Assembly (NCBI RefSeq): GCF_001298715.1
Contig: NZ_CDSC02000460.1
Span: 1-10,063 of the forward strand
Source: Bathymodiolus azoricus thioautotrophic gill symbiont
GTDB lineage: Bacteria > Pseudomonadota > Gammaproteobacteria > PS1 > Pseudothioglobaceae
Reading direction: 5' to 3'
Length of the DNA stretch: 10,063 nt
The notes below the pieces were generated by a model that was not told where the DNA came from, ran no database searches, and saw nothing but the letters and a program-made list of their open reading frames with translations. A program made the position numbers and the translations under genes. Every line of letters starts with the position of its first letter. Position 1 is the stretch's first letter. Positions 60-10,057 of the stretch are shown here, piece by piece.

Positions 60-404
60 TTACTCCTTAATTGATATTTGTTTAATTTTTAACTCTTCAC
101 CACCTGTTACAGTTAATTGGCTGGAGTTACATAGTGGGCAAGCGTCGTATCTTTGTTTGACCACCACTGTTTTATCACAACTAAAACACCAAGCATTTGC
201 CTGCGTTTGTATAATTTCTAACTGAGCACCATTCGCAATAGTACCACGAATTGCCACATCAAAACTAAATTCTAAAGCGTTAACTTCCACTCCTGAAAAA
301 GGTCCTATTTCTAACCAAACCTTATTAATAGCTTTATAGTTATTTGCTTTTGCACTGGCTTCTAGGGACTCAACAATACTCATGCAGATACTCATTTCAT
401 GCAT
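60..404 (-). CDS. hypA: HypA, hydrogenase nickel-insertion protein
   Basis: This 114-residue protein has the length and landmarks of the HypA/HybF family. It starts MHE, where His2 is the family's nickel ligand, and carries a zinc site made of two CxxC pairs (C73/C76 in CFSC and C89/C92 in CPLC). HypA acts in the cytoplasm with HypB to hand nickel to the apo large subunit (HupL). The MHE start is chosen because the N-terminal Met-His must be exposed for nickel binding; a downstream Met4 would lose it. The start overlaps the end of hupK by 8 bp (ATGCATGA), so the two are probably translationally coupled, and hypB starts 4 bp after its stop. Whether it also serves another nickel enzyme cannot be judged from this window. 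Confidence 0.95.
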   Translation of the reverse strand: MHEMSICMSIVESLEASAKANNYKAINKVWLEIGPFSGVEVNALEFSFDVAIRGTIANGAQLEIIQTQANAWCFSCDKTVVVKQRYDACPLCNSSQLTVTGGEELKIKQISIKE

Positions 405-1569
405 TGTTAATCTCTATTGTATAGCCAACACAAGGATCAATAGCATTAGTTAACAATGTTATTTTATTAACTAAGTCCTGTTTATTTTGAAAATCAAGGG
501 ATTGAATCATTTGCTTTAAAACGCCTTGAGGATGAAAATTCCATTGCGTTGGTGAAAGTATCCGATAACTCTTAATTTCTTCGCCTTGAATTGTTAAAGA
601 GTGCATTAATTTTCCACGTGCTGCCTCTACCTCAACAACAGCTGTATTAACGACAGTAGAGGTGTTAATATCATAATGAATATCCTCAGAATAAAGGTTC
701 ACATAGTTGTGCTTAACCCCCTTCAACAACTCAAATATTTCCAGCAGTTGAGAGGCATATCTGCTTAACACGCCATTGCCATATTTTGCAGATAATTTCT
801 GTATTAATGGATGTTTTTTTTGTCTGCTATATGGTGTAGTTTCATAGCAAATATTTTTATAAGTAGGCTGACCAATAAACCCATCATCATTAAGCAATGT
901 TATTATTTCTTCTGTTGTTATATTTGGCAAAAATAAAGAATCAACGCTACCTAAGCCACTTGATTGAGATTGCTGTATATTGTGTAAAAATAGGGCGCAG
1001 TCGCTACTTTGGGTTTTTATCCAATATTCAAAATTTTCACTATTGGAAAGTATTGTCTCTGAATGGAACTGTTCGCCAACAAGCTCAAGCATTAGTTGTT
1101 GCTCTAATTTTGCAACTAAAGAATTAATGCCACTAAAAGGTTGTAGTGTTTTTTTTTCTAACGATAAAGGGTTGCCTGTTAGAAATAAAGTGGTATTTAT
1201 TTCTCTAAGCGTAGCAAATAAATCAACAATATTTTTATTTATTTTATTACTATCATCAATACGCCATTTTGTTGCAATACTAAAACAATGCTCCCTAATA
1301 GTCTCTAAATCTAACAGTAATTGACAGGCCATTATTTCATTTTTGCTCAAAGAAATCACCTTGCATTTATCCAAAAGGTGTAAAAATGCAAATCTGTGTG
1401 CAGTATTACATAATTGATACAAAGCATCGAGTGTTGTTGCGACTTTTTGAATAGACTGTCCTGCAAATAATTGAGTGATATGTAGGGGGCGAGAAGAGCT
1501 AATTAAAACTTTTTTAATATCAGAGGCCTCTATAACAACTTTGATTACAATTTTTCCTTCAATTGACAT
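397..1569 (-). CDS. hupK: HupK, large-subunit-like hydrogenase assembly protein
   Basis: This 390-residue protein resembles a degenerate [NiFe]-hydrogenase large subunit. Around residues 50-58 the segment LYQLCNTAH stands where HupL has its first CxxC nickel motif, but only one cysteine (C54) and the histidine remain. Near the C-terminus DPCVGY (378-383) echoes the HupL DPCxxC motif with one cysteine (C380) and no cleavable tail. HupK proteins are thought to act as scaffolds while the Fe(CN)2CO unit is prepared for HupL; that role is family knowledge, not shown here. The start codon shares one base with the hupJ stop (TAATG) and there is no strong Shine-Dalgarno sequence, so coupling to hupJ is likely. 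The middle of the protein is poorly conserved, so the family call rests on the two motif regions and on gene order. Confidence 0.85.
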   Translation of the reverse strand: MSIEGKIVIKVVIEASDIKKVLISSSRPLHITQLFAGQSIQKVATTLDALYQLCNTAHRFAFLHLLDKCKVISLSKNEIMACQLLLDLETIREHCFSIATKWRIDDSNKINKNIVDLFATLREINTTLFLTGNPLSLEKKTLQPFSGINSLVAKLEQQLMLELVGEQFHSETILSNSENFEYWIKTQSSDCALFLHNIQQSQSSGLGSVDSLFLPNITTEEIITLLNDDGFIGQPTYKNICYETTPYSRQKKHPLIQKLSAKYGNGVLSRYASQLLEIFELLKGVKHNYVNLYSEDIHYDINTSTVVNTAVVEVEAARGKLMHSLTIQGEEIKSYRILSPTQWNFHPQGVLKQMIQSLDFQNKQDLVNKITLLTNAIDPCVGYTIEINNA

Positions 1570-2105
1570 TATAAAACTTGTGTATTGTTTTTATTCCCAC
1601 GAAGAAAATCTCTTCTTGAGGTAACCTTACTTAAGGTCTCATCGTCCTTAATTTTTTGTACTAGCGCTTTCTTATCCTTTTCTGCTTTCTTGAATTCATC
1701 ATTTTGCAATAATTGTCCCATCACTGCAGTAGCAGTCTCAACTGCTTGAGTCTGGGTTTTAAATTCAAACATAGGCGAAAACAATGAACAAGTTAAATAA
1801 ACACCAAATTCATCATCTAATTGAGTTAAAAAAGAATATTCACCATCTGGAAACAATATGTTGGCAGTTTTCCCTACCCTAATTTTTTGTTGCATAATGC
1901 CATTTGGCAGTAGAACAATATTCATAAACCAAGGTGTGATTAATACTCCGACTTTAGAGGCTTGCTTACCGCTTTCTTCTCCCCAGTTAACAAAACCCAC
2001 TACTTCAACTTTAAGTTTATTGTTAACAATCGGAATGTCTTTCATTTTGTGCTTATACACATATTGATAATGACTTTTTAAACACTCAATATTGCTACCA
2101 TTCAT
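1569..2105 (-). CDS. hupJ: HupJ, HybE-family hydrogenase assembly chaperone
   Basis: The 178-residue protein contains the block GVLITPWFMNIVLLP (about residues 53-67), characteristic of the HupJ/HybE family of [NiFe]-hydrogenase assembly chaperones. A second conserved stretch around GEYSFL and a cysteine-containing SLFSPMFEF segment follow in the middle. HybE-type proteins bind the precursor subunits in the cytoplasm and are proposed to delay Tat export until cofactors are in place. The extreme C-terminus has SRRDFLRG (163-170), which looks like a Tat twin-arginine motif but lies at the wrong end for a signal peptide. The rubredoxin that is fused to HupJ in some species is here the separate gene just upstream (hupI). 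No clear ribosome-binding site is visible before the ATG; 8 bp separate it from hupI. Confidence 0.88.
   Translation of the reverse strand: MNGSNIECLKSHYQYVYKHKMKDIPIVNNKLKVEVVGFVNWGEESGKQASKVGVLITPWFMNIVLLPNGIMQQKIRVGKTANILFPDGEYSFLTQLDDEFGVYLTCSLFSPMFEFKTQTQAVETATAVMGQLLQNDEFKKAEKDKKALVQKIKDDETLSKVTSRRDFLRGNKNNTQVL
1596..1619 (-). other. Tat-like SRRDFLRG motif at the C-terminus of HupJ
   Basis: These codons encode Ser-Arg-Arg-Asp-Phe-Leu-Arg-Gly at residues 163-170 of 178. The motif parallels SRRSFIK in the HupS signal peptide (residues 28-34). It is not followed by a hydrophobic segment, so it is not an export signal. It could be mimicry that lets the chaperone contact Tat components or a Tat proofreading partner. 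I believe similar tails occur in other HybE-family proteins, but could not check this. Confidence 0.6.
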
Positions 2106-2113
2106 TTTAATAA

Positions 2114-2341
2114 CTATAAAATATCATTTCTATCGATAACCATAAACTGATCCATAAAACCATCACAATTTGGACAATGCCAATGCCCTGGTAATTGAGT
2201 AAATGGCGTGTTAGCTGCTATCTGCCAATAATCATCCCCCTCTTCAGGTTTGTAAACATGATGACAAATTTTGCACTCCATGCAAGCATCATCGGCAATT
2301 TTCTCCTCATCTCCTAGATAACTGCCTTCAAAAGTTTTCAC
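2114..2341 (-). CDS. hupI: HupI, rubredoxin-type hydrogenase accessory protein
   Basis: This 75-residue protein is a rubredoxin. C23/C26 (CKIC) and C56/C59 (CPNC) would bind one iron, and the intervening segment has the family's GD...W.IA..TPF..LP..W pattern. HupI/HoxR rubredoxins in hydrogenase operons are needed for assembly of the small-subunit iron-sulfur clusters when oxygen is present, which fits the oxygen-tolerant type predicted for HupS. The start is GTG, embedded in a GTGA overlap with the hupH stop codon, with no strong Shine-Dalgarno sequence, so translation probably depends on ribosomes finishing hupH. The next in-frame ATG (Met22) would leave only one residue ahead of the first cysteine pair, so the GTG start is preferred. 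An 8 bp gap follows before hupJ. Confidence 0.95.
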   Translation of the reverse strand: MKTFEGSYLGDEEKIADDACMECKICHHVYKPEEGDDYWQIAANTPFTQLPGHWHCPNCDGFMDQFMVIDRNDIL

Positions 2342-3207
2342 AATTCGTCAGTAAACTCTTTTAAGCGTTCAGTGCTTGATTCTATATCTTCTTGTGCAGC
2401 ACAAGCAACAATAGGTATGTCAACTACCTCAATAGTGCTGAGTATTTCATTGTCAGTAGAGTTAAAATATTTCACCCACCAAATAGCAGAAACACCGGTT
2501 GAAGTAATACGACAATTACCATAACCTCTTGACAAGATAACAGTATCACCCAAACCTAAAACATTATTAATAGAGATTAAGTCATCTTCTGTGTGAGGCA
2601 ACAATGTTAAATTAATAGCTTCTAAAGAAGTTTTTAAATTACCATGTTCTTCTCTTTTTTCTTTTAATTCAGTCAAAATTGCGGGTGCGTTAATGACATT
2701 TTCTGGCAATAAGGCGCTATTAAATATAACTTTACTAGAGTTTTTTTGATTAAGCATAACAATCGCCTCTGGGATATCACCCACTTCAATACAGTCACTA
2801 ACAAGATTATTATCGTTATCAATAATAGTGATTCGCCAAACGCCTGTAAAAATTGACTCTTGAATGTTTACTATTTGTTCTTTTTGATTGATAATTGCAC
2901 TCACTTCCCCCTCGCCTAGCAGGGTATTAAGGTACGCTAAATTATTTTCATCCAAACCATGGACAACAAAAGACAGATTAGGGTTGTCAATTTTATAATT
3001 AAGCATTTGAAAATGAATGCGTTCTAAAAATTCTTTACACTGAGATAAGTCTTGACTTTCATCCCATTCATAAATTTTACTATTTACATCAAAGGTAGAC
3101 ATTTCTGTCGGCATTTCCATATATTCTAATTTATCTTCTTCCGATATAGTTTGTGAACCAGCACCTAAAAAATTTGCTGGAATTGGTGGAATAGGGATTG
3201 ATGACAT
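2338..3207 (-). CDS. hupH: HupH, HyaF-family hydrogenase maturation protein
   Basis: The protein has 289 residues, close to HyaF/HupH family size. The N-terminal region contains the family hallmark G.GSQ...(E/D)..LEYMEMP.EM.TF (about residues 16-39). The C-terminal half has GYGNCRITSTGVSAIWWVKYFN and then VVDIPIVACAAQEDIESSTERL, again typical of HupH. HupH is a cytoplasmic accessory protein for assembly of the small subunit and its iron-sulfur clusters; its biochemical activity is not well defined in the family. A strong AAGGAG site lies 7 bp before the ATG, in a 13 bp gap after hupG. The 3' end overlaps the hupI GTG start by 4 bp. No signal peptide or membrane segment is visible. Confidence 0.92.
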   Translation of the reverse strand: MSSIPIPPIPANFLGAGSQTISEEDKLEYMEMPTEMSTFDVNSKIYEWDESQDLSQCKEFLERIHFQMLNYKIDNPNLSFVVHGLDENNLAYLNTLLGEGEVSAIINQKEQIVNIQESIFTGVWRITIIDNDNNLVSDCIEVGDIPEAIVMLNQKNSSKVIFNSALLPENVINAPAILTELKEKREEHGNLKTSLEAINLTLLPHTEDDLISINNVLGLGDTVILSRGYGNCRITSTGVSAIWWVKYFNSTDNEILSTIEVVDIPIVACAAQEDIESSTERLKEFTDEL

Positions 3208-3220
3208 TTTTAAACTCCTT

Positions 3221-3631
3221 CTAATTTTGTTTTAAAGCTATTTTAATGGGTGGTGTTGTTGGTTCTGATAATAACAGTTTTTGTATTGTATTGATATAAT
3301 CATCCCAGTCTTGCACCTTGGAAATGGCACCTAAATAATTTCCATCTTTAAAAAACACCAAAGAAGGCCAGGTGGTAAAACCATAATTTCGCTGAACTTT
3401 CATTTCGTCATCGCGACTAATAATAGCGGGAACAATTGCATGTTTAAAAGCTACCATCAATTCTGGCAATATGACAGCAACATCTAAACTTTCTGGAAAA
3501 AGTTTAGCGTCATTGCAAAAAAATAAAACACTATGACGGTGCTTACCGATAAAAGCGTTGACATCGTCTGCCAATAAAAGCGGATATTGATTTTTATCGA
3601 TAAGTTGCTGTATTAGTTCTGGAAACATCAT
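3221..3631 (-). CDS. hupG: HupG, HyaE-like thioredoxin-fold chaperone
   Basis: This 136-residue protein has the layout of the HyaE/HupG family, a thioredoxin fold without a redox centre. VLFFCNDAKLFPESLDVAVILPEL (about 35-58) occupies the place of the thioredoxin active-site strand and helix, but there is no CxxC and only one cysteine in the protein (C39). YGFTTWPSLVFFKDG (83-97) corresponds to the cis-proline loop and the following strand of thioredoxins. In E. coli HyaE binds the Tat signal peptide of the hydrogenase small subunit, so this protein probably guards the HupS precursor before export. It begins with an ATGA overlap with the end of hupF, a sign of coupled translation, and lies between two other maturation genes. 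Confidence 0.9.
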   Translation of the reverse strand: MMFPELIQQLIDKNQYPLLLADDVNAFIGKHRHSVLFFCNDAKLFPESLDVAVILPELMVAFKHAIVPAIISRDDEMKVQRNYGFTTWPSLVFFKDGNYLGAISKVQDWDDYINTIQKLLLSEPTTPPIKIALKQN

Positions 3632-3939
3632 TGTTTGTCCTCGGGTAAAAAAGGGTTAATAGGTGTTCGATCAATTAAATCACCAAATAAAGCGTGTATT
3701 CGCTCGCTCTCATCACTATACATCGCCAAACTGACTGCCTTTAAAGCATTATCAATTTCTTTGGCTCTGTCAGTAGAAATAACCTCTCTGGCAGCATCAA
3801 TAAAAACCAACACCCAAGTACCTGTCATTTGTGGTCCAACCAATTGCATATTAATGGTTTTATTAACCCCATTATCTTGACAAGTCGCAAAAGTATCGCT
3901 CATAGAATCCACAACCTGCATAGGAATACCAATACACAT
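3628..3939 (-). CDS. hupF: HupF, HypC-family chaperone for HupL
   Basis: The 103-residue protein begins MCIGIPMQV. The N-terminal Met-Cys (Cys2) is the defining functional residue of HypC chaperones, which carry the Fe(CN)2CO group to the large subunit and keep it open for nickel. It is longer than a typical HypC (about 75-95 residues) and ends with ALFGDLIDRTPINPFLPED, a tail that marks the HupF subgroup. HupF is known to assist or protect HupL during aerobic growth and works beside a separate HypC. A second HypC would be expected in the hyp genes beyond hypB, outside the window. A GAGGGG site lies just ahead of the ATG inside the end of hupD, with a 3 bp intergenic gap. It overlaps hupG by 4 bp. 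Confidence 0.93.
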   Translation of the reverse strand: MCIGIPMQVVDSMSDTFATCQDNGVNKTINMQLVGPQMTGTWVLVFIDAAREVISTDRAKEIDNALKAVSLAMYSDESERIHALFGDLIDRTPINPFLPEDKQ

Positions 3940-3942
3940 TAT

Positions 3943-4635
3943 TTACCCCTCAAAGTGCTTGCGACCATCCACAAAGACATTAGTGTGGCAAGTATTATCA
4001 ATCAATTCTTCTTCTCGCTGTTCAAAAGCATTGTCCATTAACACCCGGGCATCTCCTTTTCTGCACGCTATTGCTTCAGGTGGTCGATTCACTTCATAAT
4101 CATCCATAGCAATTGTTGGACTGTTGACGCCCTCACATTCAGCAAGCGGCGTCACACGCTTTTTGTAAGTAACACCATAACTATCAAGATATTTCAAACA
4201 TTCATTAATTGCTGGTTGAATTTGCACTTTAACTTCATCACGCAAACTACCGCCAAAATCCTCTAATTGCACAGGTTGAACGCCAATTAAAAATATATGA
4301 TCTGGTGTTTCCCCTGTTAATTCAGCGGTAGATAGTACTTCTTGAAAGCCTGTTTGATGTAGACTCATTTTTTTAGCACCCATAAATTTAGGGACATCTT
4401 CATCATGAATAAGTTTCATCGTGCCAGGTTTTAAACCATAATCAATTGCATCAAAAACAATCAATAAATCACATTCTTGTACATGTTGAATTAAATACAA
4501 CCCCAGTGTGCCACCATCCATTAATTTAACTTCATCATTAAATTCGTATTGCTGATTGATTGCCTCAACTGTGCGCACACCAAAACCCTCATCAGCCCAC
4601 AATATATTGCCAACACCTAATATTAAAACTTTCAT
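3943..4635 (-). CDS. hupD: HupD, [NiFe]-hydrogenase maturation endopeptidase
   Basis: This is a HybD/HupD-family protease that removes the C-terminal peptide of HupL after nickel insertion. The start MKVLILGVGNILWADEGFGV is the family signature, and the three nickel-sensing ligands known from HybD (E16, D62, H93) are all present at exactly those positions (DEGFG, FDAID, SLHQTG). The GVQP and LEDFGGSLR segments near 118-132 are also typical. The core ends around residue 155, followed by a tail with ACRKGDARVL at 190-199. About 30 further residues follow, rich in acidic groups and with one Cys-His pair (C216, H217); at 230 residues the protein exceeds the usual 160-205. An AAAGG site precedes the ATG. 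It is separated from hupC by 74 bp, the widest gap in the operon. Confidence 0.96.
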   Translation of the reverse strand: MKVLILGVGNILWADEGFGVRTVEAINQQYEFNDEVKLMDGGTLGLYLIQHVQECDLLIVFDAIDYGLKPGTMKLIHDEDVPKFMGAKKMSLHQTGFQEVLSTAELTGETPDHIFLIGVQPVQLEDFGGSLRDEVKVQIQPAINECLKYLDSYGVTYKKRVTPLAECEGVNSPTIAMDDYEVNRPPEAIACRKGDARVLMDNAFEQREEELIDNTCHTNVFVDGRKHFEG

Positions 4636-4709: not shown

Positions 4710-5441
4710 CTATCTTCGATCGTCTTTCCAAGTTCTCCAGCCATTAATCATTGTACTAACTAACGATTGCCTTGACATTACATCTTCTCTAATAGCGGCA
4801 TAAATATGAATCATAACGAATGTCAAAATAAACCACATGCCCAAGTGATGCCAAGTATGCACATCCTGACTTTGTCCAAAGAGTGGAATCAGCCACCCAG
4901 CAAAGGCAGTATACCACCAGCTATCCATTCCTTGACCTTCTGCATACAATGCAAATCCAGTAAAAATCATAAAGATAGATCCTGTAACAAACATTAAAAA
5001 CATAAACAGTGATGCCATAGGATTGTGTCCCACATATTTTTTAGGCTCTTTTTCTAAGAAGGCATACCAGCGCAACTCATGCAACACCTCTTTCCACCAA
5101 GATATTTGAAACAATGGTGGCACGAAAAGCTGTTTGGCATGTCCATTCCCTACAAATGCCCAATACACCCTACCAATCATACCAATGGCAAACACATAAG
5201 CCGCCACAAAATGGAAAAAGCGAATATAGCCCATAACATAAAAATCACTTGCTTCACCTGACATGCTAGGCAATGGGGAGCCGATAAAATAACCCGTCAA
5301 CGCCAAAACAGTAATAGCACCTGCATTAACCCAATGCCACAAACGCACAGGCGCTTCATATACATAAACTGCCTCTACGGTTGATTCAATACCTGATGAT
5401 TCTAAGTCACCAATAGCCGAACTCATCTTTTTTGTACTCAT
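4710..5441 (-). CDS. hupC: HupC, di-haem cytochrome b subunit of uptake hydrogenase
   Basis: The 243-residue membrane protein belongs to the HupC/HyaC/HydC cytochrome b family that anchors HupSL and passes electrons to the quinone pool. Four hydrophobic helices are visible, at about 38-54, 72-97, 144-166 and 200-217. Candidate haem ligands are H36 (RLWHWVNA), H77 (RFFHFVA), H198 (HTWHH) and H212 (MIHIY). The 14-residue spacing of the last two matches the spacing I recall for the Wolinella HydC ligands. The N-terminus has about 25 polar residues before the conserved VYVYEAPVRLWHW block. An AAAGGGG site precedes the ATG by 6-7 bases. A small membrane-protein gene is inserted between hupL and hupC, and the 3' side is followed by a spacer with a hairpin. 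Confidence 0.96.
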   Translation of the reverse strand: MSTKKMSSAIGDLESSGIESTVEAVYVYEAPVRLWHWVNAGAITVLALTGYFIGSPLPSMSGEASDFYVMGYIRFFHFVAAYVFAIGMIGRVYWAFVGNGHAKQLFVPPLFQISWWKEVLHELRWYAFLEKEPKKYVGHNPMASLFMFLMFVTGSIFMIFTGFALYAEGQGMDSWWYTAFAGWLIPLFGQSQDVHTWHHLGMWFILTFVMIHIYAAIREDVMSRQSLVSTMINGWRTWKDDRR

Positions 5442-5464: not shown

Positions 5465-5737
5465 TTATGACAATAAAAGACCTACACCCAATATTGAACT
5501 CATAAGGCCTAATACCATTAATATCGTTGATAAAATTTGCCTGCTATTACAAACAAGGACAGCGCTTACTATCAACACCGCACTCATTGCCAACATTGCA
5601 GCGATATGGTATGAGCTACTAAGATAGTGTTTCGCTACCTCAATAACACCCACAAGTTCAAATGGCGTATGCCCAGAATGAGCAATCGCAGTGACTGAAA
5701 ATAACAACGACATTGCAACTAATAATAATTTTTTCAT
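5465..5737 (-). CDS. Small secreted-type membrane protein in the hupE position
   Basis: This 90-residue protein is not firmly recognised. Residues 1-19 form a signal peptide (MKKLLLVAM..., cleavage predicted after Ala-Ile-Ala), leaving a mature protein that starts His-Ser-Gly-His. Two hydrophobic helices follow, at about 45-62 and 69-89, with one cysteine (C63) between them and histidines at 20, 23, 37 and 44. The mature start and the segment YHIAAMLAMSAVL recall HupE/UreJ nickel permeases, which begin H-x-GH and have HPxxGxDHxLAM. However, HupE has about 200 residues and six helices, and the full metal motif is absent here. Its position between hupL and hupC matches where hupE sits in some gammaproteobacterial clusters (Methylococcus, from memory). 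A strong AAGGAG site overlapping the hupL stop shows it is translated as part of the operon. It may be a reduced HupE or an extra subunit of the membrane complex. Confidence 0.85.
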   Translation of the reverse strand: MKKLLLVAMSLLFSVTAIAHSGHTPFELVGVIEVAKHYLSSSYHIAAMLAMSAVLIVSAVLVCNSRQILSTILMVLGLMSSILGVGLLLS

Positions 5738-5744
5738 TTTTATA

Positions 5745-5750
5745 CTCCTT
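5745..5750 (-). promoter_or_regulatory. Ribosome-binding site of the small membrane protein
   Basis: AAGGAG lies 7 bases before the ATG of the 90-residue gene, and its first two bases are the last two of the hupL TAA stop. This is one of the best Shine-Dalgarno matches in the operon and fixes the start of the small gene, which might otherwise be dismissed as spacer between hupL and hupC. Confidence 0.85.
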
Positions 5751-7563
5751 ATCGAACTTTAACATTAATTAATTCTTCACCTTCTTCACTCATTATATGA
5801 GTAGAACAGGCAAGACATGGGTCGAAACTGTGCAAAGTGCGTAAAATTTCAACCGGCTCATTGGCACGCTCAACAGGGGTTCCCATTAAGCTGGCCTCAA
5901 AGGCACCAATATTTCCCTCTGGGTCCCGAGGTGACCCATTCCAAGTTGTTGGAACAATACACTGGTAATTGTCAATTTTTCCATCTTTAATCACAATCCA
6001 ATGCGCATTTGCACCACGAGGAGCAGCTACTGTACCTACACCTTTGGCATTTTTTGGCCAAGTTTTAGGATCCCATTTTTCCATGTTAGCAGTTGAGCTA
6101 TCGCCACTCTTTATATTTTTGATTAACGCATGCCAATCTTCCACCATCATTTCAGCGCAATATTCGGACTCTAATGCTCTTGCAAGCGTTCTACCTATAG
6201 TAGATTGCAGCGCTTGCTTCATATTAAGTTCAGTGCCAGCTAAAGCGTTAAATCCAGAAAGTGCCTTAGTGGTTTGTTCTGTGATGTACTCATGTCCTTG
6301 TGCGATTGCTAAAACATAACGAGATAAAGGACCCACTTCAACTGCATGCCCTCTCCAGCGAGGGGATTTAATCCATGAGTATTTAGCACTTTCATCAAGC
6401 TCCTTAATATCGGTTCTTGTGCCTTTAGTTTTGGATCCTAACTCATAGTTTGGCTCTGTAATACCATCCCATGGGTGTAGTCCTTTGGTTTCATCTGGAT
6501 ATTTATACCAAGAATGTGTAACAAATTCTTGCACTTGCTCTGGGTCTTTTGGATCAACTGGAAATACCTCATCCCAATTGTCATTAAGAATAACGCCACC
6601 TGGCAATTGATCGGTAGATTTATCATAATTAACTTTAGGATAAGCGCCGTAATCCATGACACTTTTTGCACCAATACCGCCACCCCATAGTTGTCCCTTA
6701 TAAAAACTGGCAATAGCAATAACATCAGGCACATAAACATTATTATTAAACTGCACCATTTCATCAATGCGTGATTTAACAAAATTTAAACGCTCCATAT
6801 TTAGGGGTGCACCTGCAGCCATATCGCCATCCATATTAATTGCACACGGGACGCCACCAACAAGATAATTTGGGTGTGGATTTTTACCACCAAAAATAGT
6901 ATGCAACTTAACAAACTCTTTTTGCAAGTCCAAGGCTTCCAAATAATGCGCTACCGCCATTAAATCTGCTTCGGGAGAAAGCTTATAAGCAGGATTGTCC
7001 CAATAACCATTTTTAAAGGGTCCTAATTGCCCCGATTCAATAAACTTACGAATTCTAGTTTGAATATCTTTAAAATATCCAGGGCTAGATTTGGCATGCT
7101 TAGGCGATACGATATTTTGCAACCCTGAGGTTGCCTTCGGGTTTGCCTTTAATGCATTCACTGGATTGACCCAGTCCAACGCATGCAAGTGATAAAAATG
7201 CACAACATGATCGTGCACTTGCAAAGTTTTTGCCATCATTTCACGAATAAGATGCGCATTAAGTGGGATTTTAATATCCAACGCATCCTCTACTGCTCTA
7301 CAAGATGCCAGCGCATGGCACCCTGTACAAACGCCACAAATTCTCTCAACAAAAGCCCAAGCATCGCGGGGGTCTCTACCTCTTAAAATCACTTCAAGTC
7401 CACGCCACATTGTACCCGTGGAAACCGCATTAACAATCACATTGTTTTTGTCTAAATTGACTTCACAACGCATATGTCCTTCAATTCTAGTAACAGGATC
7501 CACAACAACACGCTGACCGCCGTTGTCCAAAGTGTAACCATTGGGTGTATTTATAACTGACAT
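5749..7563 (-). CDS. hupL: HupL, [NiFe]-hydrogenase large (catalytic) subunit
   Basis: This 604-residue subunit holds the Ni-Fe(CN)2CO site where H2 is split. RIEGH (26-30) contains the proton-transfer Glu28. RICGVC (74-79) supplies two nickel cysteines (C76, C79), and DPCLAC (581-586) supplies the other two (C583, C586). DPCLACSTH is followed by a 15-residue tail (590-604) ending in VKVR; by family knowledge HupD cleaves after His589 once nickel is inserted. GGKNPHPN (225-232) is another conserved block. It has no signal peptide and is exported together with HupS. Length and motifs fit membrane-bound group 1 uptake hydrogenases. An AGGAGA site inside the end of hupS precedes the ATG, with a 3 bp gap. 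No frameshift or missing residue is seen. Confidence 0.99.
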
Positions 7564-7566
7564 AAT

Positions 7567-8685
7567 TTATTCTCCTGTGTTTTCTGCTTGATTGGTCTTG
7601 GCACTTTTAAGTGCACTGGCTGCTGCATGCACAGCAATTACCGCGCCTGTAGCACCAGCAACAGCAAATCCGATTTCATCAGCATCCGCCTCAATACCAA
7701 AGCCATGCACCTCAGTTAAGCGGTCATAAAATGAGCCTTTATCCCAAAATCCATCTTCTGAGCAACCAATACAACCATGGCCTGCTTGAATTGGGAAAGA
7801 AGTGCCTTCATTCCAACGAATGGTAGAGCAAGCGTTGTAAGTTGTTGGACCTTTACAGCCAACCTTGTATAAACAATAGCCTTTTTTGGCATTTTCATCG
7901 TCAAACTCTTCCACAAATTGTCCAGCATCAAAATGTGGACGACGATAACATTTATCGTGAATTCTTTGTGAATAAAACATCTTAGGACGGCCTTGTCTGT
8001 CTAAGGTAGGCATTTTGTCAAAAGTTACCATATAAGTAATCACCCCTGTCATAACTTCTGCAATTGGTGGACAACCAGGCACTTTAATGATTGGCTTGTC
8101 AGTGATTAATTTATGTGTTGGTGTTGCTTGTGTAGGATTGGGTCTGGCGGCTTGAACGCAACCCCAAGAAGCACATGAACCCCAAGAAATAATCGCCTTA
8201 CAATGTTTAGCAACTTTTTCAATTTGGTGGTGAAAAGGCTTGCCGGCAATAATACAAGACATGCCGTCTTGATTAAGAGGTGTATTACCCTCAACTGCAA
8301 GAATAAAATTACCATCGTATTTTTCAATAGTCTCATCAATAATGGCTTCTGCTTGCTGCCCTGCTGCCGCCATAATCGTATCATCATAATCTAGCGAAAT
8401 CATAGACAAAATAACATCTTTTGCCAATGGGTGTGCTGAACGAATAAACGATTCTGAACAGCATGTGCACTCTAAGCCATGTAGCCAAAGCACTGGAATT
8501 CTTGGTTTATTTTCCATAGCATAAGCAATCTTACCGACAAACGAAGGCCCTAAGCCTAATGCGGTTGCAGTTAAACTACAATATTTAATAAAACTACGAC
8601 GACTAATCCCCTGTCTTCGCATTACATCATAAAAGCTTTCAGTTGGCGATTTGTCAACCGATCGTGTTAATTCTATATTAGGCAT
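7567..8685 (-). CDS. hupS: HupS, [NiFe]-hydrogenase small (FeS) subunit, oxygen-tolerant type
   Basis: The 372-residue precursor begins with a Tat signal: SRRSFIK at 28-34, a hydrophobic stretch, and predicted cleavage after Ala-Tyr-Ala (54-56), giving a mature N-terminus MENKPRIPV. The proximal cluster region has six cysteines: C73, C75, C76, C171, C176 and C205. Subtracting 56 gives 17, 19, 20, 115, 120 and 149, the positions known for the [4Fe-3S] cluster of oxygen-tolerant E. coli Hyd-1. Distal cluster ligands are H243, C246, C271 and C277; medial [3Fe-4S] ligands are C286, C305 and C308. A C-terminal helix at about 337-360 anchors the protein to the membrane next to HupC. It is the first gene of the operon, with a purine-rich GGGGAGAGG ribosome-binding site and an upstream sigma-54 promoter. 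Confidence 0.99.
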
Positions 8686-8759
8686 AATCCTCTCCCCTTA
8701 AGTTTATTATTTAATAAAAAAATAATGTACCCTAATCAGTAACAAAGTATACTATTTAA
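8686..8759 (-). promoter_or_regulatory. Predicted 5' leader of the hup mRNA
   Basis: If transcription starts about 12 bases beyond the -12 GC, the hup transcript has a leader of roughly 74 bases. It is very A/T-rich up to the purine-rich GGGGAGAGG ribosome-binding site just before hupS. I see no convincing riboswitch or stable hairpin in it. The exact 5' end is inferred. Confidence 0.5.
8748..8753 (+). promoter_or_regulatory. Possible sigma-70 -10 box (TATACT) for the rpoN-like gene
   Basis: TATACT lies 26 bases before the ATG of the divergent sigma-54 gene and matches the TATAAT consensus at five of six positions. No good -35 box is found 16-18 bases upstream; the best is TGTACC at 8726-8731. 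A start near 8760 would give a leader of about 20 bases, back-to-back with the predicted hup start. In such AT-rich DNA a -10-like hexamer may occur by chance. Confidence 0.35.
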
Positions 8760-8770
8760 TATTAATACAA

Positions 8771-8785
8771 GCAATAACTATGCCA
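8771..8785 (-). promoter_or_regulatory. Sigma-54 -24/-12 promoter of the hup operon
   Basis: On the minus strand these bases read TGGCAT-AGTTA-TTGC, then TT. This matches the sigma-54 consensus TGGCAC-N5-TTGC at every element base except the last of the -24 box, with the correct GG-to-GC spacing. It points to hupS, with a transcription start expected near 8759. Known hup promoters in proteobacteria are often sigma-54 dependent. The site covers the ATG (8780-8782) and the second codon of the divergent rpoN-like gene, so polymerase bound here should interfere with that gene. An enhancer-binding activator would be needed to open the promoter; none is encoded in this window. Confidence 0.82.
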
Positions 8786-10057
8786 AAACACTCATTACAA
8801 CAAAAATTAAGTTTTAATTTCAACTTAACGCCCTTATTAAAAAACTCTATAAATCTACTGTCTATGCCGTATGACGATTTATTAGTTGAAGTGAATAATG
8901 CCTTAAAAGAAAATATTATTTTGACTAAAAATACTAAAAAAACAGATGAATTTTATGTCAATAATAAAACCAATGAAGATTCCTTTGCAAAATTAACCTT
9001 CAAAGAATCTTTGTTTTCTAGTTTAGAAAACCAATTACCAAATATTGGTTTAACCGAAAAACAACTTAATATCGCCTATATTATGCTTGAGAATTTAACC
9101 GAAGTCGGATTTCTAGAGATAAACATTGAGGCAATCATAAGGATTTATTCAAGAAAACACTCCAAGGATCAAGTCAATATTCAGCAGTGTGAGATGGTCA
9201 AAAATAAAATGCAAACCAATCTTGACCCTTTTGGTATTACCTCCTTTAATACGCAAGACTTTTTATTATTACAAGTCAATCATAAGGGAAACCTTGCCGA
9301 TCAATCTTTAATTGTGAAACTTTTATCCGGTGAGACTGATATTTCCCAAATAACCGAAATACAAAGATGTAACTTCATCAAGGTGGTTAAATATTTGAAT
9401 AAAACCCCAGCTGATAATTTAGGTAATATTCAAAACTCATATATACAGCCAGATATTTTTATTAACAAAGTAGGCGATGGTTGGCGCATTAGCCTAAAAA
9501 AGCTACCCGCTATCATGCTCAATAAAGAATATCTAGCGTTACGCAAACAAATTCCAGACAAAACTTTATTCAATGAACATCTAAGCATTGCCCGTGGACT
9601 GGTTGATTTTTTGACTTATCGCAATCAATATTTACAGAGAATTAGCAAGGCGCTGGTCGCCAAACAACATCAAGCGCTTGACAAAGGTCTGGAATACATA
9701 TTACCATTAACGCAAAAACAATTAGCATTGGAACTGGATATGGGTGAATCCACCTTATCGCGTTTAATTAAAAACAAATATATGGATACACCCATTGGTA
9801 CGATTAAAATCCAAGATTTATTTTCTGCCAATGTTGGCAATCATGCTGCAAAATCTATTCAACACAGAATTATTCAAATTATTCACAATGAAAGTATTGC
9901 ACTTTCTGATCAAAAAATATGTGATTTATTAACACGGGACAGGATTGTAATTTGTCGAAGAACAATAACCAAATATCGAAAAAAATTAAATATACCTTGC
10001 GCCCGTTATAGAAAATTATTTAACCTTAAACTCAAAAATAATGACGCTAAAAAATGA
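8780..10057 (+). CDS. Divergent, shortened sigma-54 factor (RpoN paralogue)
   Basis: This 425-residue protein is an RpoN-family sigma-54, which directs RNA polymerase to -24/-12 promoters and needs an enhancer-binding ATPase. Region I (about 5-50) keeps the NLTPLLKNSINLLSM pattern but has only two glutamines where typical RpoN has many. The acidic region II is nearly absent (about 51-70), which accounts for most of the shortfall against the usual 470-500. LDPFGITSFNTQDFLLLQ (148-165) and YIQPDIFINKVGDGWRISL (221-239) match the core-binding domain. GESTLSRLIKNKYMDTPIGT (322-341) is the helix-turn-helix region. The RpoN box, normally ARRTVAKYRE, reads CRRTITKYRK (392-401). It ends with tandem stops TGA TAA. 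There is no strong ribosome-binding site. Its position beside hup, rather than in the usual lptB-rpoN-hpf neighbourhood, suggests a specialised second copy, but it could be the only rpoN of the genome. Confidence 0.93.
   Translation: MPKHSLQQKLSFNFNLTPLLKNSINLLSMPYDDLLVEVNNALKENIILTKNTKKTDEFYVNNKTNEDSFAKLTFKESLFSSLENQLPNIGLTEKQLNIAYIMLENLTEVGFLEINIEAIIRIYSRKHSKDQVNIQQCEMVKNKMQTNLDPFGITSFNTQDFLLLQVNHKGNLADQSLIVKLLSGETDISQITEIQRCNFIKVVKYLNKTPADNLGNIQNSYIQPDIFINKVGDGWRISLKKLPAIMLNKEYLALRKQIPDKTLFNEHLSIARGLVDFLTYRNQYLQRISKALVAKQHQALDKGLEYILPLTQKQLALELDMGESTLSRLIKNKYMDTPIGTIKIQDLFSANVGNHAAKSIQHRIIQIIHNESIALSDQKICDLLTRDRIVICRRTITKYRKKLNIPCARYRKLFNLKLKNNDAKK
8807..8828. promoter_or_regulatory. Inverted repeat upstream of the hup promoter
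   Basis: TTAAGTT and AACTTAA (8807-8813 and 8822-8828) form a perfect 7 bp dyad with an 8-base spacer. It lies about 22 bases upstream of the -24 box, inside codons for region I of the sigma-54 gene. The centre is near -58 relative to the predicted hup start, somewhat closer than usual for an enhancer-binding activator, so it could be an operator or chance symmetry in AT-rich coding DNA. Confidence 0.3.

Follow-up and report, generated by a model that had tools for sequence, protein, structure and literature searches.

Sigma-54 is usually a factor of wide reach that works with several activators, and the canonical rpoN locus has the order lptB-rpoN-hpf-ptsN. Why does a gene of this family stand head-to-head with the small-subunit gene of an uptake hydrogenase in the thioautotrophic gill symbiont of Bathymodiolus azoricus, and how much besides that hydrogenase might its product serve? 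The window, i.e., the whole stretch of 10,063 nucleotides that was analyzed, is contig C130 of the symbiont genome G000 (1.86 Mb in 515 contigs, rated 100% complete). The contig ends 6 bases past rpoN, and the neighbour of this gene on the known side is hupS; in relatives the far side of rpoN, as judged by eye, is not hpf or ptsN. The following features were recognized in the window:

60-404, minus strand: hypA
397-1569, minus strand: hupK
1569-2105, minus strand: hybE/hupJ
2114-2341, minus strand: rubredoxin (hupI), a gene distinct from rpoN; GTG start deduced from relatives
2338-3207, minus strand: hupH
3221-3631, minus strand: hyaE/hupG
3628-3939, minus strand: hupF/hypC-family chaperone
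3943-4635, minus strand: hupD maturation protease
4710-5441, minus strand: cytochrome b subunit (isp2/hupC-like)
5465-5737, minus strand: isp1-like small membrane protein of 90 aa, named by position, its family match being below the cut-off
5749-7563, minus strand: hupL, large subunit (profile match)
7567-8685, minus strand: hupS, uptake [NiFe] hydrogenase small subunit with a Tat signal (TIGR00391, 545.9 bits vs cut-off 179.5)
8748-8753, plus strand: TATACT, possible sigma-70 -10 element of rpoN
8785-8770, minus strand: TGGCATAGTTATTGCT, predicted sigma-54 (-24/-12) promoter site of hup, facing hupS
8780-10057, plus strand: rpoN, divergent sigma-54 of 425 aa starting MPK (open reading frame and Pfam)

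The rpoN frame carries all three sigma-54 domains above the Pfam gathering scores, namely AID (PF00309, 29.0 bits), CBD (PF04963, 75.6 bits) and DBD (PF04552, 131.8 bits), with profile positions 1-44 of 46 covered for the AID and 4-159 of 160 for the DBD. The motif that we take to identify the RpoN box is present as CRRTITKYR in the window and as RRT[VI]TKY[RQ] in all seven genomes with an intact gene of this kind, hereafter called hup-type. An RpoN-family gene head-to-head with hupS, as proposed in the initial annotation, is therefore borne out, the gap between the two genes being 94 bases (8686-8779). The NCBIfam equivalog model for rpoN, TIGR02395, gives the protein 239 bits, below its cut-off of 277.35, which is a naming threshold; by NCBI's rule the predicted RpoN is a divergent subfamily and not an equivalog.

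The -24/-12 promoter that had been claimed to face hupS stands as well. The site matches exactly TGGCAYRNNNNTTGCW, which we take to be the -24/-12 consensus, with GG at -25/-24 and GC at -13/-12 and a predicted start near 8759 (counted from the -12 GC). Exact matches to TGGCAYRNNNNTTGCW number 7 in the 1.86-Mb genome, and about 4e-4 would be expected in a gap of 94 bases. With one mismatch allowed, 133 matches were found in the genome vs 14 for the reversed control; since the one-mismatch pattern is so common, it is the exact match and its conservation that carry weight, and the loose consensus alone says little. An exact match lies upstream of hup in all seven genomes with an intact hup-type rpoN, with 9 + 10 of its bases unchanged among them and the rest of the gap varying; the longer form TTTTGGCATRGTTATTGCTT varies among these genomes at R only. 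In the eighth genome, G103, in which rpoN is broken, the -24 half of the site is gone together with the start codon and the -12 half is retained.

The site and the gene share bases. Positions 8780-8785 serve both as the first two codons of rpoN and as part of the hup site, the -24 half of which is the start codons ATGCCAAAA read backwards, and the corresponding Met-Pro-Lys start is invariant in all seven intact copies. A TATAMT box occupies the -10 place of rpoN in five of the seven genomes (TATATC in G094, none in G011), and no convincing sigma-70 -35 element was found upstream of it. Provided that this box is used, the promoters of rpoN and hup would overlap and would not be occupied together.

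The distribution of the pair was surveyed in 83 genomes of the family, each searched with three families (rpoN, hupS and the activator). The hup-type rpoN is intact in G000, G005, G006, G007, G011, G091 and G094 and broken in G103, and a matching hupS of about 117 bits is present in the same eight genomes (truncated by a contig end in G006). The pairing expected to recur in relatives does so: rpoN adjoins hupS in 8/8 family members with this hydrogenase, the broken gene of G103 included. No PF04552 match above the cut-off was found in 71 of the 83 genomes. Two of these (G002 and G031) have only matches below it, repeated and in frames of ~300-430 aa, perhaps helix-turn-helix (HTH) regions of transposases. 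Four more genomes (G003, G010, G022 and G090) carry a different rpoN of ~450 aa and lack hup. In G003, G022 and G090 (loci L021, L097 and L098) the gene is followed, within one contig, by those for a histidine kinase and an activator; G010 has its activator on a separate contig. The gene of G090 neighbours a DMSO-reductase-like operon that includes a TorD chaperone. We read these loci as sigma-54 modules of a second kind within this family. Strong activators (>100 bits) are confined to 12 of the 83 genomes, i.e., the seven intact hup-type ones, the four just named and G065. The last (99% complete) has two of them (C43, C66) and no rpoN match, which may reflect contamination, a missing rpoN or activators that are free of RpoN.

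Beyond the family, a sample of 276 class genomes with a completeness of 90% or more was considered, which includes a few from the family. Outside the family, 58 of these genomes have an over-cut-off [NiFe] hydrogenase small subunit of any type, and 56 of the 58 have rpoN; the two genes adjoin in none of the 56. In seven they share a contig, the nearest pair being 66 kb apart, and for the other 49 differing contig numbers were compared by eye, so that draft contig breaks could hide an adjacent case, but hardly all of them.

The genome of the window holds one strong activator in a PF00158 search (224.6 bits; a second could be missing from the 515-contig draft). Two weak AAA+ matches of 29.3 and 22.9 bits lie in frames of 853 and 744 aa, a length that suggests Clp/Lon-type proteins. 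The activator, of the HupR/HoxA kind, is encoded between hypB and hypC at G000:C215:5828-7105, and the cluster of the window very probably runs on there as hypB-hupR-hypC-hypD-hypE. In G005, G007 and G011 a single contig carries hup, rpoN and the activator, with ~12 kb from rpoN to the activator; this contiguity is seen directly in these three genomes, and we infer it for G000. The hup-type activator consists of a receiver and an AAA+ domain with GAFTGA and an AAA lid, followed by the stop codon. No HTH was detected at E 0.01 in 5/5 intact copies (that of G005 is split over two frames, possibly by an assembly error, and that of G094 is cut by a contig end). The HTH_8 domain that completes the HupR/HoxA architecture (receiver, AAA+ with GAFTGA, HTH_8) is thus absent, which places the protein among the type Ic, i.e., DNA-binding-domain-less, bEBPs. 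Two family activators of the other type have weak HTH_8 matches of 18.5 and 20.2 bits vs the Pfam cut-off of 22. Among the best 120 of 8000 relatives of the G011 activator, PF02954 is lacking in the top 14 clusters (61-100% identity) and present in 105 of the next 106 (the exception being P0228); one of the 14, P0127, is a 385-aa fragment that stops inside the lid and is uninformative on this point. Many of these 106 are named HupR/HoxA, as is the query itself (P0121, HoxA), and the identity to clusters so named is 49-54%. On the simplest reading, the DNA-binding domain would have been lost once, at the base of the clade.

The hydrogen sensor has a patchier record. A histidine kinase and HupU/HupV-type hydrogenase subunits are kept downstream of hypE in G011 and G091; in G000, G005, G006, G007 and G094 no such genes follow hypE, and no second hydrogenase small subunit was found in these five genomes. 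At what are presumably the key receiver positions (acidic pair, phospho-acceptor D, T/S and K), the phospho-acceptor D and K are kept. The acidic pair is DD in both genomes with HupT and reads DG, DA, DS and DG in the four without it (G000, G005, G006 and G007, respectively), the receiver of G094 being off the contig. In Cupriavidus necator, according to the accessible text of PMC10073562, HoxA is active when unphosphorylated; if the same applies here, by analogy hup would be permanently on where the sensor has been lost.

RpoN itself stands far from its relatives. The best 120 of 556 matches comprise 14 clusters at 51-99% identity, after which identity drops to 28% (118 bits); a distant relative from Flavobacteriales has 27%. 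By this comparison hup-type RpoN appears to be an isolated clade, and a tree built together with 17 RpoNs of the class and 4 others of the family unites it in one clade (100/100) whose stem measures 2.6 changes per column; this tree is rooted at the midpoint and contains 13 rows of biased composition. Within the clade, the protein of G094 (genus g4) groups with that of G000 (genus g1; 98/96), apart from that of G091 (g4), which hints at transfer between genera. Beyond rpoN, G005, G006 and G007 have part of their genes in common, and those of G091 and G094 look different, so that mobility is a hint only. RpoN also differs in identity from its neighbours in the cluster (54-76% vs 91-95% for HupL, in 6 genomes, and 86-91% for HypD).

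The initial annotation explained the locus by a specialised second sigma-54 alongside a housekeeping rpoN, a reading to which the divergent sequence and the location in the hydrogenase cluster lend themselves, as does the presence of hpf and/or ptsN near rpoN instead in the four class loci tested (of 17 fetched). The genome search removed its basis: PF04552 has one match in G000, the sole rpoN found (in a draft of 515 contigs, from which a second copy could be missing), an outcome that the initial annotation had itself named as refuting. It has one apiece in the six further genomes with an intact hup-type gene, and the 71 family genomes mentioned above have none over the cut-off. This reading is already refuted for the present assembly, and we give it next to no credence in general. 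Collapse of its regulon or capture of the module, rather than a duplication of rpoN, would explain why RpoN looks dedicated. Quite improbable, too, is a reading of rpoN as the decaying remnant of a general sigma-54 of the ancestor, with hup transcribed by sigma-70 and the -24/-12 site a fossil. HupR of Rhodobacter capsulatus works with sigma-70, and the low identity of RpoN to the next relatives outside its clade (among the best 120 of 556) and its score below the NCBI naming cut-off could be taken for decay. In G103 (L096, G103:C209 ~912-1340), moreover, rpoN is in fragments with the start codon missing and the hupS and hupL frames are intact; no strong activator was found in this genome, which is 78% complete, and the broken rpoN may be an assembly error. 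Against decay, rpoN is by its codon changes under purifying selection, with dN/dS of 0.08-0.25 in 18 of 21 pairs (3 saturated), values that are rough since dS is at least 0.9 in all comparable pairs. Conservation is higher in the domains that contact the activator and the DNA (71% each) than in the one that binds the core enzyme (55%), and the hup site is kept in 7/7 genomes with the intact gene, its -24 half being lost where rpoN is broken.

A somewhat less remote, yet still unlikely, alternative is that RpoN continues to serve a wider regulon, in which hup is only one among several conserved sites. The 18-base promoter word TTGGCAYRGTTATTGCTT was searched in the 83 family genomes with up to two mismatches. 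Exact matches occur at 10 sites, all of them in the seven genomes with an intact hup-type rpoN and none in the other 76; seven are at hup, and G007, G011 and G094 have one more each. Matches with one mismatch occur in G005, G006 and the rpoN-less G079. In G007, G011, G094, G005 and G006 this second site lies upstream of a short open reading frame and/or a rhodanese-like gene, at the following places:

L165 4088-4103 (= G007:C1:239087-239102), minus strand: second site
L166 2613-2628, minus strand: second site
L167 2234-2249, minus strand: second site
L199, minus strand: second site
L200 9185, plus strand: second site

The short frame encodes a DUF3579 protein in the G011 copy tested and is similar in G005, G006 and G094, the rhodanese-like gene is cut short in G007, and a membrane protein near the site in some relatives has only a sub-cut-off cytochrome c match. 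The near-identical second site and the excess of one-mismatch consensus matches over the control speak for a wider regulon; the single strong activator, the lack of any other site common as the 18-base word and the position of G000's three other matches to TTGGCAYRGTTATTGCTT within two mismatches, all inside reading frames, speak against it. Counts of exact TGGCAYRNNNNTTGCW matches are of little help here: they are 5-12 in the six other intact hup-type genomes, 2-11 in 8 rpoN-less ones and 0 in G103, and, because they overlap, genomes with rpoN are told from those without it by the full 18-base word but not by the loose consensus. The unclear exact counts, together with the one-mismatch excess, mean that weaker true sites may exist. 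As far as seen, the predicted regulon is hup alone in the genome of the window and hup with perhaps one further operon in five relatives; judging by these second sites, then, it is not always hup alone. That the sigma factor mainly serves hup, the last claim of the initial annotation, is well supported by the one strong activator in the hyp operon and by the finding of no other conserved site in the genome.

Several candidates for additional promoters in G000 were dropped. The six exact TGGCAYRNNNNTTGCW matches other than that at hup all lie inside open reading frames. One of them, on C467, just inside a transporter-like frame and divergent from another gene, looked like a candidate sigma-54 promoter; it was discarded as its 15 bases recur in two genomes that have no rpoN, G001 and G004. 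The rhodanese-like gene of G000 (C400) has a different context from that of the second targets and no good upstream site. As a separate observation, the leader behind the second site reads TGGCAGA...TCTGCCA in G007 and G094 and TGACAGA...TCTGTC in G006, a change that looks compensatory, as in a possible RNA hairpin or small RNA.

With these alternatives weighed, the locus is very likely a self-contained sigma-54 module fixed to the uptake hydrogenase, made up of a sole, divergent RpoN, a HupR lacking a DNA-binding domain and the hup site; sigma-54, normally of general purpose, seems to have been narrowed down to serving the adjoining hydrogenase as its private switch. On the best reading of the sequences, the putative regulon has one or two promoters and is passed on along with hydrogen oxidation, the functions of its parts being assigned from homology and conservation. 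In the proposed mechanism, RpoN-RNA polymerase would wait as a closed complex at the hup promoter and HupR, having no enhancer-binding domain, would open this complex from solution through its GAFTGA loop. Where HupT-HupUV is missing and the receiver pocket is changed, as in G000, HupR would stay unphosphorylated and hence, presumably, constantly active. The closed complex would also cover the rpoN start and its presumed promoter, so that RpoN should limit its own synthesis; such self-limitation through promoter overlap is probable. A further step, which we advance tentatively and to which we give slightly less than even chances, is that the sigma factor is a captive part of a mobile cassette. 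According to it, rpoN, HupR without its DNA-binding domain and the hydrogenase would come and go together; the -24 element being the rpoN start, the closed complex would prepare hup and shut off rpoN, keeping a regulon of one, at most a few, promoters in self-balance; and sigma-54 would survive in the family only as such cassettes, of the hydrogenase type and of the second, DMSO-reductase-like type. Sigma-54 here appears cut down to a near-smallest workable set, with one sigma factor, one activator without DNA-binding domain and one or two promoters, and seems to be handed on together with an optional energy pathway. Such a set would offer a natural minimal system for mechanistic work, a clear case of regulon shrinkage or capture among symbionts and kindred bacteria, and an account, open to direct testing, of the control of hydrogen use in vent-mussel symbionts.

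Among the nearest known systems are HoxA/HoxJ/HoxBC of C. necator and HupR/HupT/HupUV of R. capsulatus; the activator described here is a HupR/HoxA homologue, with the 49-54% identity to clusters so named that is given above. Sigma-54 is a general factor in both organisms, and here rpoN lies in the cluster; furthermore, the full-length HupR/HoxA relatives carry HTH_8 (105/106 as given above, among the best 120 of 8000), unlike the activator of the window. The rpoN of Rhodobacter nif clusters and rpoN2 of Mesorhizobium loti are pathway-linked paralogues, encoded, as here, with the pathway served, and several organisms with such genes have further rpoN genes (M. loti has two rpoN genes, according to the accessible text of the source); in the window, by contrast, rpoN is the sole one found and has bases in common with the promoter. 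The hydrogenase promoters of C. necator need sigma-54, in likeness to the predicted hup site (PMC10073562, accessible text). In Acidithiobacillia, as far as the accessible text of PMC12194929 goes, HupR has no kinase, is linked to hupS-hupL and is proposed to work with sigma-54, like here, but it is HupR and not rpoN that is divergent from hupSL, and RpoN is described as passing vertically within that class. Activators without a DNA-binding domain are represented by type Ic proteins such as FlgR of Helicobacter and CtcC of Chlamydia, whose hosts have small genomes with one or few activators (accessible texts of PMC3162934 and PMC7482065). These proteins, and the small one-activator genomes (Francke et al., 2011; PMC3162934), are precedents for such economy; the present case differs in its presumed target, a hydrogenase, in the physical tie of the sigma gene to that target and in the occurrence of the loss in a HupR lineage.

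According to the accessible text of Patra et al. (2022; PMC9789115), hypABCDE, hupIJKLRS, hyaCDEF and rpoN are conserved in arrangement in the sulfur-oxidising symbionts of Bathymodiolus, and HupTUV is found, among mussel symbionts, in B. thermophilus strain EPR9N only; the cluster is apparently the same as that of the window. The words 'sigma' and 'promoter' are absent from its main text, and, unlike here, the accessible text gives no count of rpoN or activator genes and leaves the missing DNA-binding domain unremarked. The main text of the Hydrogenovibrio SP-41/XCL-2 paper (PMC6501319) does not contain rpoN, sigma, hupR, hoxA or promoter. In the open-licence literature searched we found no account of a hup-dedicated sigma-54 in these bacteria, nor of a genome's only sigma-54 being linked to a hydrogenase, nor, on a point that was not targeted by itself, of a -24 element formed by the start of the sigma gene.

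Two corrections of annotation follow. The accessible text of PMC9789115 labels rpoN 'a rubredoxin gene', whereas rubredoxin (hupI) and rpoN are separate genes in the window, and the RpoN of the B. thermophilus symbiont (P0008) is named 'hypothetical protein', perhaps because RpoN of this kind, as scored for the window, falls below the TIGR02395 cut-off. A more distant [NiFe] hydrogenase small subunit (~79 bits) was encountered at G103:C134 (L099) and G100:C20, and at G103:C134 this hydrogenase clusters with several small membrane proteins.
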